Shown in pieces: positions 2,631-18,549 of a stretch of 64,000 nt of DNA. Position 1 is the first letter of the stretch. Each line of letters starts with the position of its first letter. The position numbers and the translations under genes are program-made. The DNA lies in NCBI RefSeq assembly GCF_029961155.1, contig NZ_JASBRH010000009.1, positions 1-64,000 of the forward strand. Direction: 5' to 3'. The notes below the pieces were generated by a model that saw nothing but the letters and a program-made list of their open reading frames with translations, was not told the DNA's origin and did not search any database. This DNA comes from Pontibacterium granulatum. GTDB taxonomy: Bacteria; Pseudomonadota; Gammaproteobacteria; Pseudomonadales; Balneatricaceae.

Positions 2631-3506
2631 ATGACCACGAATACAGCCACCGTTGATAACGACTACCTGAAAGGATTCACCCTGGTTCTGCTCTCTGCCA
2701 TTGGCTACGGACTGCAACCGTTATTTACCCACGTTGCCTACAGCGACGGCGCCAGCCCCGTGGGCTTATTGGTGCTGCGCTTCCTGGCAGCCTCTTCGAT
2801 GATGTTTGTCTGGTTAAAGCTGCGGGGCTTTGAGATGCCACCGCTGAAACACAACCTGCAATACCTGCTGGTTGGAATCGGATACTCCGGTGCGGCGCTG
2901 GGTTACTACAGTGCCAGCCACAGTACCTCGGTCAGCCTGGCGGTTATTCTGATGTTCTCCTTCCCCGCATTTGTGGTTCTGTTTTCCATTGGGGTACTTA
3001 AGGAGAAAGCCACACCACTGAAGCTGGTCAGTGTCGCATTGGCAATTGGCGGGGTTATTGTGGCGGTCGGCCTGGATATTCAGGGTGATAGTACCGGTGT
3101 GCTTTGGGCGTTGTTCGCGGCGTTTGCGTACGGCTCGGCTATATTGTACGGCACCCATAAAGCCAGCCCGCTGTATCCAGCGCAGTCAGCCTGCATGGTA
3201 TTGATCGGATGCTTCCTGGGTGCGGTAGCGGTCAGCTCGGTGCAACCGACACATTGGCCACAAACGGATGCGGGGTGGTTGTCGGTGGTAGGACTGGCAT
3301 TGTTCGCAACCATCTTCCCGATCGCGACGTTTATAGCGGGTGCGCCTAAGATTGGCGCATCTAATGCGTCCACCATCTCCACCATGGAACCGGTCGTAGC
3401 GGTTGCAATCGCCCTGCTATTGATTGGAGAGCCACTGAATACAGCCACAATGATTGGTGGCGGGATGGTTATTCTTGCTGTGGTCTTGTTATCACGCTCT
3501 AAATAA
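2631..3506 (+). CDS. EamA/DMT family transporter
   Basis: Inner-membrane protein of the drug/metabolite transporter superfamily, about 291 residues with roughly ten hydrophobic segments arranged as two EamA repeats. The first begins FTLVLLSAIGYGLQPLF and the second begins about GVLWALFAAFAYGSAILYG. The C-terminal repeat has the characteristic MEPVVAVAIALLLIGEPL segment. The frame is open upstream to 2496, but transporter-like sequence begins at MTTNTATVDNDYLKGF, so I place the start at 2631; the ribosome-binding site is weak and the start is uncertain. The substrate cannot be told from sequence. It is divergent from glyA-sox and could move an amino acid or C1-related metabolite (inference). 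Confidence 0.85.
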   Translation: MTTNTATVDNDYLKGFTLVLLSAIGYGLQPLFTHVAYSDGASPVGLLVLRFLAASSMMFVWLKLRGFEMPPLKHNLQYLLVGIGYSGAALGYYSASHSTSVSLAVILMFSFPAFVVLFSIGVLKEKATPLKLVSVALAIGGVIVAVGLDIQGDSTGVLWALFAAFAYGSAILYGTHKASPLYPAQSACMVLIGCFLGAVAVSSVQPTHWPQTDAGWLSVVGLALFATIFPIATFIAGAPKIGASNASTISTMEPVVAVAIALLLIGEPLNTATMIGGGMVILAVVLLSRSK

Positions 3507-3582
3507 GCAGTCATTCAACACGACCAGTTAATATTAATAGCCACCTGAATAAACCATTTTCCCTTCGAAAAGTTCGTGCAAT

Positions 3583-3608
3583 AAAAAAGGCCACCCAAAT
3601 GGGTGGCC
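3583..3608 (-). terminator. rho-independent terminator (minus strand), orphan
   Basis: Perfect 8-bp stem GGCCACCC-AAAT-GGGTGGCC preceded on the plus strand by six A, so a minus-strand RNA would end in the stem plus a U-run. No minus-strand gene lies just to the right, so the transcript it ends is unknown. Confidence 0.6.
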
Positions 3609-3756
3609 AAGCACATCCTTCACTGATGGATCGATATAGATCAATTCAAATACTAGCCGTTGTTTTCAAGGTTTAGTTTCCTAAATACGCTACCAGCATT
3701 TTTATTTACGACAATGCCAAACTTCTGAATTCTAAACTCCCCACCGTTCCCTCCTC

Positions 3757-13206: not shown

Positions 13207-13380
13207 AAAAAAGGCCCCTGAGCTGGGGCCAAATTTAAGACACCACGTCTTAAATACCATGGAGTAGTTCTCCCAAAAGGCTCTGAGCTTTTTAGGAAAT
13301 CACTACAGCCCAAACGCTAGTCGGATCAGAACCTTTACTCAAACTAATAGTTTTTAGAAAGATCTTAAAAAATATTTATA
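13207..13380 (-). ncRNA. candidate small RNA (minus strand) with its own terminator
   Basis: GGCCCC-TGAGCT-GGGGCC (13213-13230) with a six-A tract on its left is a strong minus-strand terminator. Yet no protein gene lies upstream of it on that strand before the divergent SMR gene. A perfect 8-bp hairpin TTTAAGAC-ACCAC-GTCTTAAA (13234-13254) precedes it. A/T-rich promoter-like sequence lies around 13350-13380. This layout fits a short independent RNA, with a guessed 5' end; it could instead be a decayed gene's terminator. Confidence 0.35.
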
Positions 13381-13551
13381 CCTAAATCCCTACATCCACG
13401 CTGACGGCACCAGCCGCCTGAAAGCCTCACGCCACGGGGCTTTCAGAGCCACCAAAAAAACCGATACCCCCCTCCAATTTTTTCCGTTTTACAGCTTTTC
13501 ACTGAAGTTCGATATTGAAAGCCAGTTGGTTTTCACAGTGAGGGTTTCGAC

Positions 13552-13914
13552 ATGACGGGCTGGTCTCTGTTGATGTTGGGCATCGTATTTGAAGTGGCAG
13601 GCACCTTTTGCCTGAAGCTATCTAACGGCTTCAGCAATGTCACGGCTTCGGTGCTCTGTTTTGCGTTCTTTGCAGTCGCACTCAGCCTGATCACCCTCAG
13701 CGCGAAAACCCTCGACGTAAGCATCGTATACGCGGTGTGGTCCGGTGTCGGCATTGTGCTGATCACTCTGTTGGGCGTTCTGTTCTTTCAGGAAGCCATC
13801 AGCCCTGGCCGCATCGGTTTTATCGTCCTGATCCTTGTTGGTGTGCTGGGTCTGCACCACGAAAGCAATCCTGAGCAACCGGAGACTGAGCATGTCCATA
13901 CTTCTCAACAATAA
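13552..13914 (+). CDS. small multidrug resistance (SMR) family transporter, EmrE-like
   Basis: 120-residue, four-helix proton antiporter. The essential membrane glutamate is E14 (GIVFEVAGTFCLKLS). The WSGVGIVLI signature in helix three is closer to EmrE/Qac proteins than to guanidinium exporters (Gdx/SugE). EmrE-type proteins export quaternary ammonium compounds, including betaine and choline, which would suit the quaternary-amine genes around it (inference). Start at 13552 after GTGAGGG. Its last 23 bases overlap the start of the hydroxyacid dehydrogenase gene, so the two are translationally coupled. Confidence 0.88.
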   Translation: MTGWSLLMLGIVFEVAGTFCLKLSNGFSNVTASVLCFAFFAVALSLITLSAKTLDVSIVYAVWSGVGIVLITLLGVLFFQEAISPGRIGFIVLILVGVLGLHHESNPEQPETEHVHTSQQ

Positions 13915-14842
13915 CGGCTACGACAACCAGACATGGTACGAGCAACTCACCATGCTGCTGCCCGAGAAAACCGTTTACCGGTATGACCAGCTCAGCTCTG
14001 TAGACATGGTGGCAGACGAGATCGAATACGCCGTGATCTGGAACCACCCTGCGGGCGATCTGCAGTGTTACCCCAATCTGAAAGGCATTCTGTTGTTGGG
14101 TGCAGGTACCGAACATATCGATCAGGACCTAACCGTACCGGACCTACCCATCGTGCGGCTGGTTGATCCCGAAGTATTAAAAGACATGGCGCTCTACACC
14201 CTCTATTGGGTGATGAACCTGCATCGCCAATATGACACCTACCGCGAGCAGCAGAGCCAGCGTGTCTGGCAGCGTCACGACATCTGCGCCCCCCAGGACT
14301 ACAAGGTTACCGTGCTGGGCCTGGGTGCCGTAGGTAAAGAGGTTGCCAATCGACTGCAACTGAACGGCTTCAACGTATCCGGCTGGGATCGCTTTGAACA
14401 GCAGCTGGATGGGGTGACCTGTTACGCAGGCCCTGACCAGTTAGGTGCATCTCTGCAATCAACCGATGTTCTGGTGAACTGCCTGCCGGTTACCCCCGAC
14501 ACCATCGGTTTTATCGACAGCACACTGCTGAATCAGCTGCCGCAATCTGCCGCGCTGATCAATATCAGCCGTGGCGACGTGATCCGCGATGTGGATCTGC
14601 TGGCGGCACTGGACCGTGGCCAACTGAGTCACGCGGTTCTGGACGCCTTCAGCATCGAGCCGCTGCCCGAGTATTCCCGTTTCTGGCGTCACCCCAACGT
14701 GACCGTAACGCCACACATGTCGGGTGCGACTTATGCCCGCTCGGCGGCACGACTGATCGCCGACAACATATTACGCATCGAAAACGGCGAGGAACCGTTT
14801 CCGCTGCATCAACACCCTGCCCGGATCGCTGCCTCGGCATAA
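13892..14842 (+). CDS. D-isomer-specific 2-hydroxyacid dehydrogenase (GhrA-like)
   Basis: 316-residue NAD(P)-dependent reductase/dehydrogenase acting on 2-keto/2-hydroxy acids such as glyoxylate and hydroxypyruvate. The nucleotide-binding motif is VLGLGAVGKEVA (about residues 140-151). Catalytic positions appear in NISRGDVI (Arg), DAFSIEPLP (Glu) and TPHMSGATY (His). Start chosen at MSILLNNNGYDNQTW, with GGAG nine bases upstream, overlapping the SMR gene. It heads a same-strand set with an aldolase, a second dehydrogenase and a BCCT transporter, suggesting a shared catabolic pathway. Confidence 0.88.
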   Translation: MSILLNNNGYDNQTWYEQLTMLLPEKTVYRYDQLSSVDMVADEIEYAVIWNHPAGDLQCYPNLKGILLLGAGTEHIDQDLTVPDLPIVRLVDPEVLKDMALYTLYWVMNLHRQYDTYREQQSQRVWQRHDICAPQDYKVTVLGLGAVGKEVANRLQLNGFNVSGWDRFEQQLDGVTCYAGPDQLGASLQSTDVLVNCLPVTPDTIGFIDSTLLNQLPQSAALINISRGDVIRDVDLLAALDRGQLSHAVLDAFSIEPLPEYSRFWRHPNVTVTPHMSGATYARSAARLIADNILRIENGEEPFPLHQHPARIAASA

Positions 14843-14860
14843 GCGAACCAATCCGGACAC

Positions 14861-15009
14861 CGATTAACCCGGCGGGTTAATCGCTTGATGCATGGACGCA
14901 TCAACATTGGCCATAGGCCAATGCGAGCTCAATAAAAACAAGCAGTTCCGCGTAACTGCGCCCGTTTTTATTGGGCGACGGAAAAATAGGAAGGGAACCT
15001 ATTTTTCCG
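14861..15009 (+). other. run of five perfect hairpins upstream of the aldolase gene
   Basis: Five consecutive stems without mismatches: CGATTAACCC/GGGTTAATCG (14861-14883); TTGATGC/GCATCAA (14885-14904); CATTGGCC/GGCCAATG (14905-14923); CAATAAAAAC/GTTTTTATTG with an inner CAGTT/AACTG (14930-14973); CGGAAAAATAGG/CCTATTTTTCCG (14979-15009). A further GGGTTAAT copy follows at about 15012. It could be a structured leader RNA, a termination-antitermination device or a palindrome cluster; I do not recognise a known class. Confidence 0.5.
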
Positions 15010-15050
15010 CCGGGTTAATAGCAACATAAAAACAATAGAGAGATGAAAAG

Positions 15051-15797
15051 ATGACAACCACACAAGAGCTAACACTGGAACAGCAGCAGGAACAGGTTCG
15101 TATCGATCTGGCAGCGATGTTCCGCCTGACCCATCTGTTTGGCTGGGATGACACCATCTGGAACCACATCACCGCACGTGTGCCGGGTTCCGATCACCAC
15201 TTCTATATGCACCGCTTCGGTCTGAACTACGAAGAGGTCACCGCGTCCAACCTGATCAAGGTGGACGAAGAAGGCAACGTACTGGAAGGTCCAAGTGATG
15301 TGAATACCGCCGGTTTCATCATCCACGGTGCAATCCACCTGAGCGACAGCCACCGCAACAACAAGTTTGTATTCCACGCGCACCCTAAATCCTGCACCGC
15401 AGCCACCGCATTCAAAGAGCTGCCATTCCTGGTTCAGGACTCCTCCATGCTGTACGGCAAGGTTGGTTTCCACGATTGGGAAGGTCTGTCTGTAGACCCT
15501 GAAGAACGTTTCCGTATCGCTGAAAACATGGGCGAAAACAGCTGCCTGATCATGCGCAACCACGGTTTCCTGACCGTAGGTGAAACCGCAGGCGAGTGCT
15601 TCATGAACATGTACTACCTGATCCGTACCTGCGAAGTGGCTCTGCAAGCGACTTCGTCCGGCTACGAGCTGGAACACGGCGACCCGGCACTGTGGGAACT
15701 GGCTGCCAAGCAGTATGAGTCCTTCCCTCCGGGCAAATACGAATGGCCAGGACTGCTGCGCAAATGTGACCGCGCAGACCCGTCCTACAAGTTCTGA
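15051..15797 (+). CDS. class II aldolase/adducin family protein
   Basis: 248-residue protein of the zinc-dependent class II aldolase/adducin head family (fuculose-phosphate aldolase type). Metal-ligand histidines lie in FVFHAHPKS (about residues 106-114) and in MRNHGFLTVGET (about 170). The acidic and N-terminal NHITARVPG segments also match. Bacterial members either cleave sugar phosphates or act on free hydroxy/oxo acids. With no kinase nearby, a non-phosphorylated substrate is likelier (inference). The start follows AGAGAGATGAAAAG. The gene sits behind a highly structured 150-bp leader and 86 bp before the next dehydrogenase. Confidence 0.87.
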   Translation: MTTTQELTLEQQQEQVRIDLAAMFRLTHLFGWDDTIWNHITARVPGSDHHFYMHRFGLNYEEVTASNLIKVDEEGNVLEGPSDVNTAGFIIHGAIHLSDSHRNNKFVFHAHPKSCTAATAFKELPFLVQDSSMLYGKVGFHDWEGLSVDPEERFRIAENMGENSCLIMRNHGFLTVGETAGECFMNMYYLIRTCEVALQATSSGYELEHGDPALWELAAKQYESFPPGKYEWPGLLRKCDRADPSYKF

Positions 15798-15883
15798 TCC
15801 ATTCGCCATCAGATCAGTACGCCGGCAGCACCACTAAAGCAAGGCTGCCGGCCTTACCCAACATATAAGAACGGATAACAAAA

Positions 15884-16777
15884 ATGAAAATCGGTTTTAT
15901 TGGCCTGGGCAATATGGGTTCAGGCATGGCTGCGAACCTGCTCGATTACTGCAAATCTCAGGGTGACGAACTGCTGGTACTGGACCTGAACCAGACCGTG
16001 GTGGATCAATTCATCGCTAACGGCGCGTCTGCGGGCGGCTCCGTTAAGAACATCGCTCAACGCTGTGAAGTGATCTTCACCTCCCTGCCAAGTTCTGTGC
16101 AGGTAAATCAGGTGGCCTTTGGCGAAGACGGCATTCTGGAAAATGCACTTCCGGGCGCAACCTGGTTTGAAACCAGCACCAACGAACTGGCGGAGTGGGA
16201 AAAGGTACGCGAAGCCGCACCGGCAGGCATGACGCTGATCGATGCGCCGGTAACCGGCGGTTCCGAAGGCGCAGCCGCAGGCACCCTGACCATGCTGTTG
16301 GGCGTCGAAGAAGAAACTCTGGCGAAGTTCGCACCTATGCTGGACGCGTTCACCAAGAAAGCGGTACGCATGGGGCCTGCAGGTGCAGGCTATGTAACCA
16401 AGCTGTCCCAGCTGCACCTGAACTACCTGGTGGCAATGGGTATCGGTGAAGCACTGATGATGGGTGCTAAAGCAGATCTGGACCTCAATGTCCTGCACAA
16501 CGTATTGCAGAACAGCTGCGCGCAGAGCTACGTGGTCGACAACTACATCCCGAAAGTGCTGGATGGCAGCTATGACCGCTCCTTCGCATTGGGTCTGGCA
16601 ACCAAAGACATGCGCCTGATCACCGAACTGGGCAGCCACCTGGGTATCGATATGACGCTGGCAAACAGCGTATACGACAACTACAAAGTTGCGACCGACA
16701 AATACGGCGCGGAAGTCCCTCACCTGAGCGTGCTCAAGCTGATCGAAGAGAAATCCGACCAGCTCCTACGCACCTAA
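15884..16777 (+). CDS. NAD(P)-dependent 3-hydroxyacid dehydrogenase (3-hydroxyisobutyrate dehydrogenase family)
   Basis: 297-residue beta-hydroxyacid dehydrogenase. The N-terminal Rossmann motif is IGFIGLGNMGSGMAANLL (residues 3-20). The substrate-binding DAPVTGGSEGAAAGTL and the catalytic-lysine region GAGYVTKLSQLHLNY follow. The usual K-x3-N-N pattern is altered (a His-Leu-Asn in place of Asn-Asn), so substrate preference may differ from classical HIBADH, GarR or tetronate dehydrogenase. It belongs to the hydroxyacid dehydrogenase-aldolase-BCCT cluster, and a strong terminator follows it. Confidence 0.87.
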   Translation: MKIGFIGLGNMGSGMAANLLDYCKSQGDELLVLDLNQTVVDQFIANGASAGGSVKNIAQRCEVIFTSLPSSVQVNQVAFGEDGILENALPGATWFETSTNELAEWEKVREAAPAGMTLIDAPVTGGSEGAAAGTLTMLLGVEEETLAKFAPMLDAFTKKAVRMGPAGAGYVTKLSQLHLNYLVAMGIGEALMMGAKADLDLNVLHNVLQNSCAQSYVVDNYIPKVLDGSYDRSFALGLATKDMRLITELGSHLGIDMTLANSVYDNYKVATDKYGAEVPHLSVLKLIEEKSDQLLRT

Positions 16778-16849
16778 CAGACAACTGCCACACAGCCTGC
16801 ATCACCCCGGTGCGGGCCGTTTTAAGACAAGAACCCTCTGTCCCTCTCA

Positions 16850-16889
16850 CAGGCCGGTTGGCTTTATTCCCGACCCGGCCTGTCTTTTT
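16850..16889 (+). terminator. rho-independent terminator
   Basis: CAGGCCGG and CCGGCCTG pair around a 17-base loop and are followed by TCTTTTTG. It ends the aldolase-dehydrogenase transcript ahead of the BCCT gene. Confidence 0.7.
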
Positions 16890-16989
16890 GATTGAACTAA
16901 ACTTATAGTTCTAACGTTTTGTGCGGATGCACACGGTTCTTATAACCTATTATAAAAACTATAAATCCATCAGGGAGTTACGTAGTAAC

Positions 16990-18549
16990 ATGTCAAATGC
17001 TGATAAACCAGCGCCTCTTTCAACGACAACGGATTACCAGATAGGACAAGACAACATCCAGCCATTTGGTTTGGATATCCATAACTTGGTCTTTCCCGTC
17101 TCTGCAGTATGCATCGTTGTATTTGTCGCATTAACCCTAGTCTTTCAGGAACAGGCCGGCACGTTCTTTAACGAACTGCGCCCTTGGCTGACCACCCAGC
17201 TTGACTGGTTCTTTGTGGGTAGCATCAACTTCTTCATCCTGTTTTGCCTGTACGTCGCCTTCTCCAAGACCGGTCGCGTAAGAATCGGCGGCCCTGACGC
17301 CAAACCAGAATTCAGCTATCCAGGTTGGCTGGCGATGCTGTTCTCTGCCGGTATCGGTATCGGCCTGATGTTCTTTGGTGTGCTTGAGCCGGTTACGCAT
17401 ATGCTCAACCCACCACTGGGTATATCACCCGATGCCCCTGAAGCAGCACGCCTTGGTATCGCCGCGGCAACCTTCCACTGGGGTATGAGTGCCTGGGCGG
17501 TGTACGCGGTTGTTGGCTTGGCGTTAGCGTACTTCAGTTTTAACCACGGGCTGCCACTAACACTGCGCTCAGCATTCTTCCCTCTGCTGGGTGACCGCGT
17601 ATGGGGCTTTACCGGTCACGTAATCGATATCCTGGCGGTCTTTGCCACAATCTTTGGTTTGGCAACCTCGCTGGGTTACGGCGCCGAGCAGATCGCCGCG
17701 GGCCTGAACGAACTGTTCGAGATCTCCCCGTCCAATATCGTAAAGGTTGTTCTGATCATCGGTATCACGATGATTGCGATCGGTTCCTGTGTAGCGGGTC
17801 TCGATTCTGGTGTAAAACGCCTCAGTGAGATCAATATGGTAATGGCGGTTGGCCTGCTGCTGTTCGTACTGTTCAGCGGCCCAACACTGGAACTGCTGAG
17901 CAAGTTTATAATCGGGCTGGGCGACTATCTGATGTACAGCTTCCCACTGTCCAACCCTGTAGGACGAGAAGACACCGGCTTCTATCATGGCTGGACTACA
18001 TTCTACTGGGCATGGTGGATCGCGTGGTCTCCATTCGTGGGCATGTTTATCGCCCGCATCAGTAAAGGCCGCACCGTACGCGAATTCATCGTCTGTGTAC
18101 TGATCGTGCCAACGCTCTTCTGTCTGCTGTGGATGACCGTATTTGGTGGCGCAGCAATCGAGCAGATGGCAGGCGGCTACGACGGTGTGCGTGAAGCCGT
18201 AAACAACTGGCAGCCTGAAGTGGTGCTTTACCGCCTGCTGGCTGAACTACCGATGAGCTTTATCGTATCGTTTATCTCCCTGCTGCTGATCGTGATCTTC
18301 TTCGTAACCTCGTCTGACAGTGGTTCTCTGGTAATCGATACGATCACCGCGGGTGGTATCCTGAACCCACCACTGCCACAACGCATCTTCTGGTGCTCGT
18401 TTGAAGGTCTGGTAGCGATCGCACTGCTGCTGGGTGGTGGCCTGGGATCGCTGCAAGCGGCAACCGTGTCCACCGGTTTCCCGTTCTGTATCGTACTGTT
18501 GCTGATGTGTCTGAGCCTGTACAAAGGCCTGAGGCACGAACGGGTGTAA
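16990..18549 (+). CDS. BCCT family betaine/carnitine/choline-type transporter
   Basis: 519-residue, twelve-helix secondary transporter for quaternary-ammonium or sulfonium compounds. Family signatures: the glycine-rich helix SAGIGIGLMFFGVLEPV and the aromatic substrate-site/signature segment WTTFYWAWWIAWSPFVGMF, followed by ARISKGRTVREF. The C-terminal tail is very short (ends KGLRHERV), lacking the long regulatory tail of osmosensing BetP/BetT, so it looks like a nutrient-uptake carrier. Start placed at MSNADKPAPL (16990); a frame open to 16921 gives an unlikely extension. The gene is between terminators, so it has its own promoter, and is followed by a LysR gene. Confidence 0.92.
   Translation: MSNADKPAPLSTTTDYQIGQDNIQPFGLDIHNLVFPVSAVCIVVFVALTLVFQEQAGTFFNELRPWLTTQLDWFFVGSINFFILFCLYVAFSKTGRVRIGGPDAKPEFSYPGWLAMLFSAGIGIGLMFFGVLEPVTHMLNPPLGISPDAPEAARLGIAAATFHWGMSAWAVYAVVGLALAYFSFNHGLPLTLRSAFFPLLGDRVWGFTGHVIDILAVFATIFGLATSLGYGAEQIAAGLNELFEISPSNIVKVVLIIGITMIAIGSCVAGLDSGVKRLSEINMVMAVGLLLFVLFSGPTLELLSKFIIGLGDYLMYSFPLSNPVGREDTGFYHGWTTFYWAWWIAWSPFVGMFIARISKGRTVREFIVCVLIVPTLFCLLWMTVFGGAAIEQMAGGYDGVREAVNNWQPEVVLYRLLAELPMSFIVSFISLLLIVIFFVTSSDSGSLVIDTITAGGILNPPLPQRIFWCSFEGLVAIALLLGGGLGSLQAATVSTGFPFCIVLLLMCLSLYKGLRHERV

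Follow-up and report, generated by a model that had tools for sequence, protein, structure and literature searches.

In the window, the 64,000-nucleotide stretch of Pontibacterium granulatum DNA analysed here, a D-isomer 2-hydroxyacid dehydrogenase gene and a class II aldolase/adducin family gene are separated by a spacer that is filled with five tandem hairpins (Table 1). The start of the dehydrogenase gene is uncertain, the longest ORF opening at 13835, and the aldolase gene is followed by a NAD-binding dehydrogenase, a BCCT transporter and a LysR regulator as assigned by Pfam. The hairpin-bearing element and both flanking genes run in one direction. A sequence-only reading of this DNA had listed five mismatch-free stems of 7-12 bp, the last of 12 bp, and all were found again at the same places; 41 bases separate the end of hairpin 5 from the aldolase ATG. 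Folded as RNA, the spacer reaches -84.3 kcal/mol as compared with a mean of -48.6 (sd 4.7) for dinucleotide shuffles (z -7.6), none of the 200 shuffles being as good; folded as DNA, it gives a z of -8.1 against dinucleotide shuffles, again with none as good. The structure is thus real and well beyond chance. The extent given earlier (14861-15009) covers the hairpins and stops too early on the right. The feature spans from ATTAACCCGGCGG at 14863 to GGTTAATAG at 15013-15021, the latter being an inverted match to ATTAACC at the left end, and the right arm of hairpin 5 is itself part of the right terminal repeat.

Table 1. Features of the dehydrogenase-aldolase spacer and its flanking genes (window coordinates).
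Feature	Position	Strand	Description
D-isomer 2-hydroxyacid dehydrogenase gene (upstream)	13892-14842	+	Pfam 2-Hacid_dh_C, E 1.7e-41
Hairpin 1	14861-14883	+	11 bp, loop of 1; palindrome on the left terminal repeat TTAACCCGGCGG
Whole element (MITE)	14862-15021	+	model R1 positions 1-160; 178.4 bits; blastn copies with the same ends
Element proper	~14864-15018	+	between the target dinucleotides, GA on the left and TA on the right
Hairpin 2	14885-14904	+	7 bp; loop ATGGAC (14892-14897), an ANGGAN hexaloop
Hairpin 3	14905-14923	+	8 bp; arms CATTGGCC/GGCCAATG, followed by CGA
Hairpin 4	14927-14976	+	13 bp including G.T; 10 perfect bp at 14930-14973
Inner hairpin within hairpin 4	14942-14959	+	6 bp
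Hairpin 5	14979-15009	+	12 bp; loop AAGGGAA (14991-14997)
Right terminal repeat	14998-15020	-	reverse complement TATTAACCCGGCGGAAAAATAGG; 22 of 23 bases as in the left end of IS630-family IS
Class II aldolase/adducin family gene (downstream)	15051-15797	+	Pfam Aldolase_II, E 1.9e-37

The spacer of 208 bp can be divided into 48 bp and an element of 160 bp. In G001, a genome of the same genus, the dehydrogenase-aldolase spacer measures 47 bp, and in G030 it measures about 49 bp; the element is absent from both. G034 has no element before its aldolase gene, and the upstream gene there differs. A miniature inverted-repeat transposable element (MITE) has been inserted between the two genes, in a spacer that otherwise measures about 48 bp. 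The sequence-only reading had also considered a cluster of palindromic elements; the feature is palindromic and mobile, and it is one element with five hairpins instead of five separate elements.

A search for copies elsewhere in the genome had been suggested, and blastn with the spacer found a single copy in that genome, together with 49 dispersed matches in eight others (57 genomes searched). Some of these matches are partial; most of the 20 copies examined share the same ends, and copies lie in both orientations. The aligned element is 159-164 bp long in 19 rows. A search of 116 family genomes with a covariance model, R1, gave matches in 23, the window's genome among them, from 7 of 16 genera; five of the 23 have at least 25 matches each, and four (G060, G082, G089 and G093) have weak matches only, with E of 2e-6 to 5e-4. 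A motif search with hairpin 3 in named genomes yielded 90 stretches, mostly from Marinobacterium, an Oceanospirillaceae MAG and Motiliproteus and including apparent chance hits in unrelated phyla. R1 was run on 80 of the 90 and on the window, and 78 of the resulting 105 matches were retained as the copy set; left aside were the window, two contig-edge copies and the 24 rows with the lowest scores, among which were several antisense echoes of other rows. Five copies in Marinobacterium profundum are identical over 159 bp while their flanks differ, a sign of recent movement. One copy used as query against each of the plasmid and phage collections gave no blastn match. Placement was followed in 75 copies (74 of the 78 and the window, with four loci outside the main genera omitted), of which 59 could be scored, the other 16 having no ORF on both sides. 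By simple ORF calling, all 59 fall outside longer ORFs; the element shares its direction with the upstream gene in 38 and with the gene downstream in 29. The element is therefore short, non-coding and dispersed in the relatives, as MITEs are, with one copy in the window's genome.

The ends of the element point to its family. We read nine complete IS in G006, G033 and G080, which are 1102-1111 bp long with TATTAACCCGGCGG at both ends. Three of the nine (L186, L191 and L194) have a left end that agrees with the right end of the window's element in 22 of 23 bases, the L186 sequence being TATTAACCCGGCGGACAAATAGG; the left terminal repeat has only about 14 bases in common with the IS. Two of the IS proteins were scanned against Pfam, and both contain DDE_3 and HTH_33 (winged HTH) domains. 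From these terminal and domain features and from known traits of the family, we take the nine to be IS630-family IS. Among the 58 of 78 copies that have both ends and distinct flanks, 54 have TA on the left and 52 have it on the right; the window copy has GA on the left. The one clean filled/empty pair consists of M. sedimentorum L084, C-TA[TTAACC...GGTTTAA]TA-TTACC, and the empty M. profundum site L038, C-TA-TTACC. This pair fits a TA duplication, and insertion beside a TA without duplication would read alike.

The base that follows the right TA is G in 43 and A in 15 of the same 58 copies, never C or T, and all four bases occur at this position in ten IS630 copies. The purine may reflect a one-sided TAR target or belong to the element as its terminal base, and plain TA duplication would fail to explain it.

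Together, the common ends, TA flanks and dispersal make it very probable that the five hairpins represent one copy of an IS630 (Tc1/mariner)-type miniature transposable element. Being too short to encode a transposase, the MITE would depend on a full-size IS630-family IS, present in some relatives, and we infer that it is mobilised in trans. The transposase would recognise both terminal repeats, the left one being TTAACCCGGCGG and the right one its longer inverted partner, and insert the element at TA; one copy would in this way have landed between the dehydrogenase and aldolase genes. DDE_3 matches are present in 5 of 16 element-bearing genomes (G006, G021, G033, G079 and G080, all of genus g3) and absent from the other 11, the window's genome (G000) included, in a search that transposases without DDE_3 would escape. 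The window copy is probably stranded, since its genome has no DDE_3 match, and an autonomous IS in the same genome is not required of a stranded copy. DDE_3 is likewise absent from 15 of 18 distant hosts; in two of the three that have it, the ends are TATTAACCCGGTG at L259 (G050) and the different TATTAACCGTCTCA at L251 (G682).

We further analysed the fold in 19 blastn copies aligned with MAFFT, using a structure drawn by hand on the window and its relatives. The five-hairpin structure leaves 93.2% of cells paired, as compared with 31.5-40.0% when the partners were slid. Both partners changed in 30 of its 55 pairs; shuffles, which ignore the kinship of the copies, averaged 13.4, and none of 500 was as high. 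Both-sided changes were found in 4 of 9 pairs of hairpin 1, 6 of 7 of hairpin 2, 10 of 13 outer and 4 of 6 inner pairs of hairpin 4, and 5 of 12 of hairpin 5; hairpin 3 (1 of 8) varies too little to be informative on covariation, and the CGA behind it is invariant in all 19 rows. Thus covariation analysis, which the sequence-only reading had called for, gave a strong signal. That reading had opposed its proposal with a scattered mobile palindrome showing no covariation; scattered and mobile the element is, and its covariation is strong.

The hairpin 2-4 core behaves in the same way over a wider range. In 16 diverse copies, 24 of 34 core pairs changed on both sides, with a covariation score of 0.494 versus 0.157 for shuffled alignments. 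A model of this core (R2), which includes neither hairpins 1 and 5 nor the ends, matched 24 of the 390 genomes searched in the order and 12 of the 369 searched in the class; both counts include the window's genome. Among 51 distinct distant cores, five of which are R2 seeds, a stem of at least 8 bp is present at the expected place of hairpin 5 in 30, against 4 at a control place, and GGA occurs in the loops of 25 of these 30 stems, against none of the 4 controls. GGTTAATA-like right ends follow the core in 14 of 51 (control 0), and TATTAACC-like left ends precede it in 11 of 51 (control 1, taken only where upstream DNA sufficed). In some of the distant copies, then, the complete arrangement is found again together with its ends, on stems that have been rewritten. 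The element looks selected for its fold, since its inside has been kept base pair by base pair while the stems were largely rewritten, with pairing held across genera and layout across families.

Two Microbulbifer cores, L091:6087-6265 and L106:6200-6306, occupy the same site in two species and have no IS630-like ends; the M. donghaiensis one (L091) is longer by about 70 bases, which lie within hairpin 4 and include further hairpins.

The loops are conserved as well. Hairpin 2 has mostly a C-G-closed hexaloop, which reads ANGGAN in 39, contains GGA in 45 and contains TCC in none of 56 distant copies (56 of 61 distinct distant rows, those of L060 and L129 being omitted). In a Marinobacterium-type set of 50 rows, the hairpin 2 loop is ANGGAN in 36 and has TCC in 3, namely two inverted loops and one truncated copy, and the hairpin 5 loop has GGA in 41; all these loop counts come from copies related by descent and so are not independent. 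In the two inverted cases, L063:4211-4369 and L057:5314-5477, the loop is ATCCCT for AGGGAT with the stem intact, as if flipped.

A GGA in a hairpin loop is a feature of CsrA/RsmA sites, and CsrA is present in all six genomes searched, G000 included. To our knowledge, sponges of the CsrB/RsmZ type are dedicated sRNA genes and not mobile elements, and the mobile element described here differs from them in this respect. The CsrA/RsmA consensus is RUACARGGAUGU with GGA in a hairpin loop, in the excerpted text of PMC4347634; the element resembles the sites so described in its GGA loops, the second letter of the hairpin 2 hexaloop being free. The likeness to CsrA/RsmA-binding RNA is one of letters only. 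It is a resemblance and not proof, because conservation extends to other parts, such as the hairpin 4 loop and the CGA behind hairpin 3, that CsrA does not explain, and because the copies share descent. A strand test counted 81 G.U against 57 A.C cells in the 50 rows aligned with MAFFT, too weak to carry weight, and hairpin 1 gave the opposite (15 G.U against 17 A.C); an earlier count of 79 against 38 was biased because the alignment had been RNA-scored.

Each insertion would bring a rigid multi-hairpin stretch into an mRNA, and we infer that the fold may be retained for a role of the plus strand as RNA. The least certain step is that CsrA/RsmA would bind to the GGA loops in hairpins 2 and 5. 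We put forward only tentatively, as a possibility rather than an expectation, an old IS630-type MITE family of Gammaproteobacteria that is kept as a structured RNA and plants a pair of CsrA/RsmA-type GGA loops in a transcript, serving gene control or acting as a sponge.

Other reasons for a kept fold have to be weighed against this proposal. A serious candidate, if still short of an even chance, is an IS630-type MITE whose fold is kept at the DNA level, with cruciforms or single-strand hairpins aiding the meeting of the ends or insertion. The excess of G.U over A.C is small, the DNA folding z is as strong as that of RNA, and 2 of 50 copies have an inverted hairpin 2 loop (ATCCCT) on an intact stem, all of which would suit selection on DNA. 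Against it, the loops keep one orientation (GGA 45 versus TCC 0 of the 56 distant copies), and a reading by eye of the outermost 60 bases of the IS copies showed no hairpins. Internal hairpins are not known to be required for IS630-type transposition.

It seems rather unlikely that the hairpins of an IS630-type MITE are kept since copies that insulate neighbouring transcripts or terminate them are tolerated. The absence of all 59 scored copies from longer ORFs and the co-directional upstream gene in 38 of 59 would be expected from such tolerance. Hairpin 5 is, however, followed by no T-run, and the number of terminator-like matches over 13300-17000 is close to that in shuffled sequence (5 versus a mean of 3.5), two of the five being the inner hairpin of hairpin 4 on either strand; the conserved loop letters would also be left unexplained.

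Y1 (HUH) transposases read single-stranded hairpins, so a palindrome moved by such an enzyme, like REP/REPIN or IS200/IS605-derived elements, would explain the five conserved hairpins directly, and the purine that follows the right TA in all 58 copies resembles a one-sided target. Yet the ends match DDE_3 IS630-type IS, with TA on both sides; the element-bearing genomes G005, G020, G092 and G095 have no Y1 match; and among 30 of 62 Y1 matches a copy was found at one locus only (L174:758-916 in G079), where the Y1 gene is a few hundred bp from the copy, while the same gene at L157 has no copy nearby. With Y1 genes not linked to copies, neither in the manner of REP/RAYT nor of IS200/IS605, this was rejected as the main reading and is very improbable.

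Hardly credible is a metabolite-sensing cis-regulatory leader (attenuator or riboswitch-like) of the aldolase operon, the new regulatory leader of the sequence-only reading, to which the filled spacer, the mRNA strand, the end 41 bases 5' of the start codon and the folding far beyond shuffles had pointed, and which is rejected as largely refuted because the orthologous spacers of G001 and G030 are empty, the G034 aldolase gene has no element before it, copies adjoin many other gene pairs in both orientations, and Rfam gave no match at the gathering score in the window, nor any to the element in eight further loci with E allowed up to 1. A strongly structured spacer ahead of one gene is, accordingly, not necessarily a riboswitch.

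MITEs are usually viewed as leftovers of IS whose interior is of little importance. ERIC and Correia (NEMIS) are each one long palindrome, with ends different from those of the element, which is a chain of five hairpins. They are intergenic MITEs, as the element is, and alter mRNA fate when co-transcribed; the excerpted text of PMC10969869, from which we compare them by description, mentions no GGA loop pair. RUP of pneumococcus is a MITE linked to IS630-Spn1, with IS630-like terminal repeats and a predicted folded transcript (PMC3049150, in excerpt). By that description, RUP and the element are both small with IS630-family-like terminal repeats, and they differ in that RUP is 107 bp long, tightly folded with its terminal repeats paired together, and found in streptococci. 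BOX, also of pneumococcus, consists of modular repeats with a consensus RNA structure, some of them transcribed, by the same excerpt; it differs from the element in its link to ISSpn2 instead of IS630, in structure and in host. PMC3049150 uses neither covar- nor compensatory anywhere in its text. The kind is thus already known, IS630-linked and structured MITEs having been described in the excerpted parts of PMC3049150 and PMC10969869. A literature search found, among the titles and abstract openings listed, neither the element nor a CsrA-binding MITE, by which we do not claim absence from print. Compared with its relatives by description, the element is a new, unusually structured MITE family; as far as the searches reach, the covarying hairpin chain, the two GGA loops and the breadth are new.

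If the element does act as a structured RNA carrying CsrA/RsmA-type loops, an insertion would place a neighbouring gene under Csr/Rsm control, or high-copy genomes would hold a dispersed CsrA sponge, and the aldolase gene would have gained a Csr/Rsm switch by one insertion. This raises a testable question, that is, whether transposons spread ready-made post-transcriptional control sites with CsrA/RsmA as the reader.

Several variants of the element were seen among the copies. Tandem core-like arrays occur at L241 (G505:C1:508801-509229; four units spaced every 116 bp) and L129 (G060; three units spaced every 161-162 bp). In G005, inverted copies (L140:260-420 and 3501-3661) flank 3 kb of DNA; a transposon was considered here and rejected, no transposase being read by eye, and the intervening DNA contains one 957-aa ORF that resembles an M16 peptidase (by eye). 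Three copies (L046:2334, L052:41 and L062:4802) are cut at the same terminal-repeat point next to GGCGG, at the left end in one and the right end in two, by a repeated sequence that begins GATGAGATGGTCTCC, as if an IS targets MITE ends. Two longer forms, one of 182 bp and one of 188 bp, in which hairpin 1 is enlarged or hairpin 4 is changed, were found at L071, L080, L081 and L084 and at L047, L061 and L094; the flanks of the 182-bp form are alike in M. rhizophilum (L071) and M. sedimentorum (L081).
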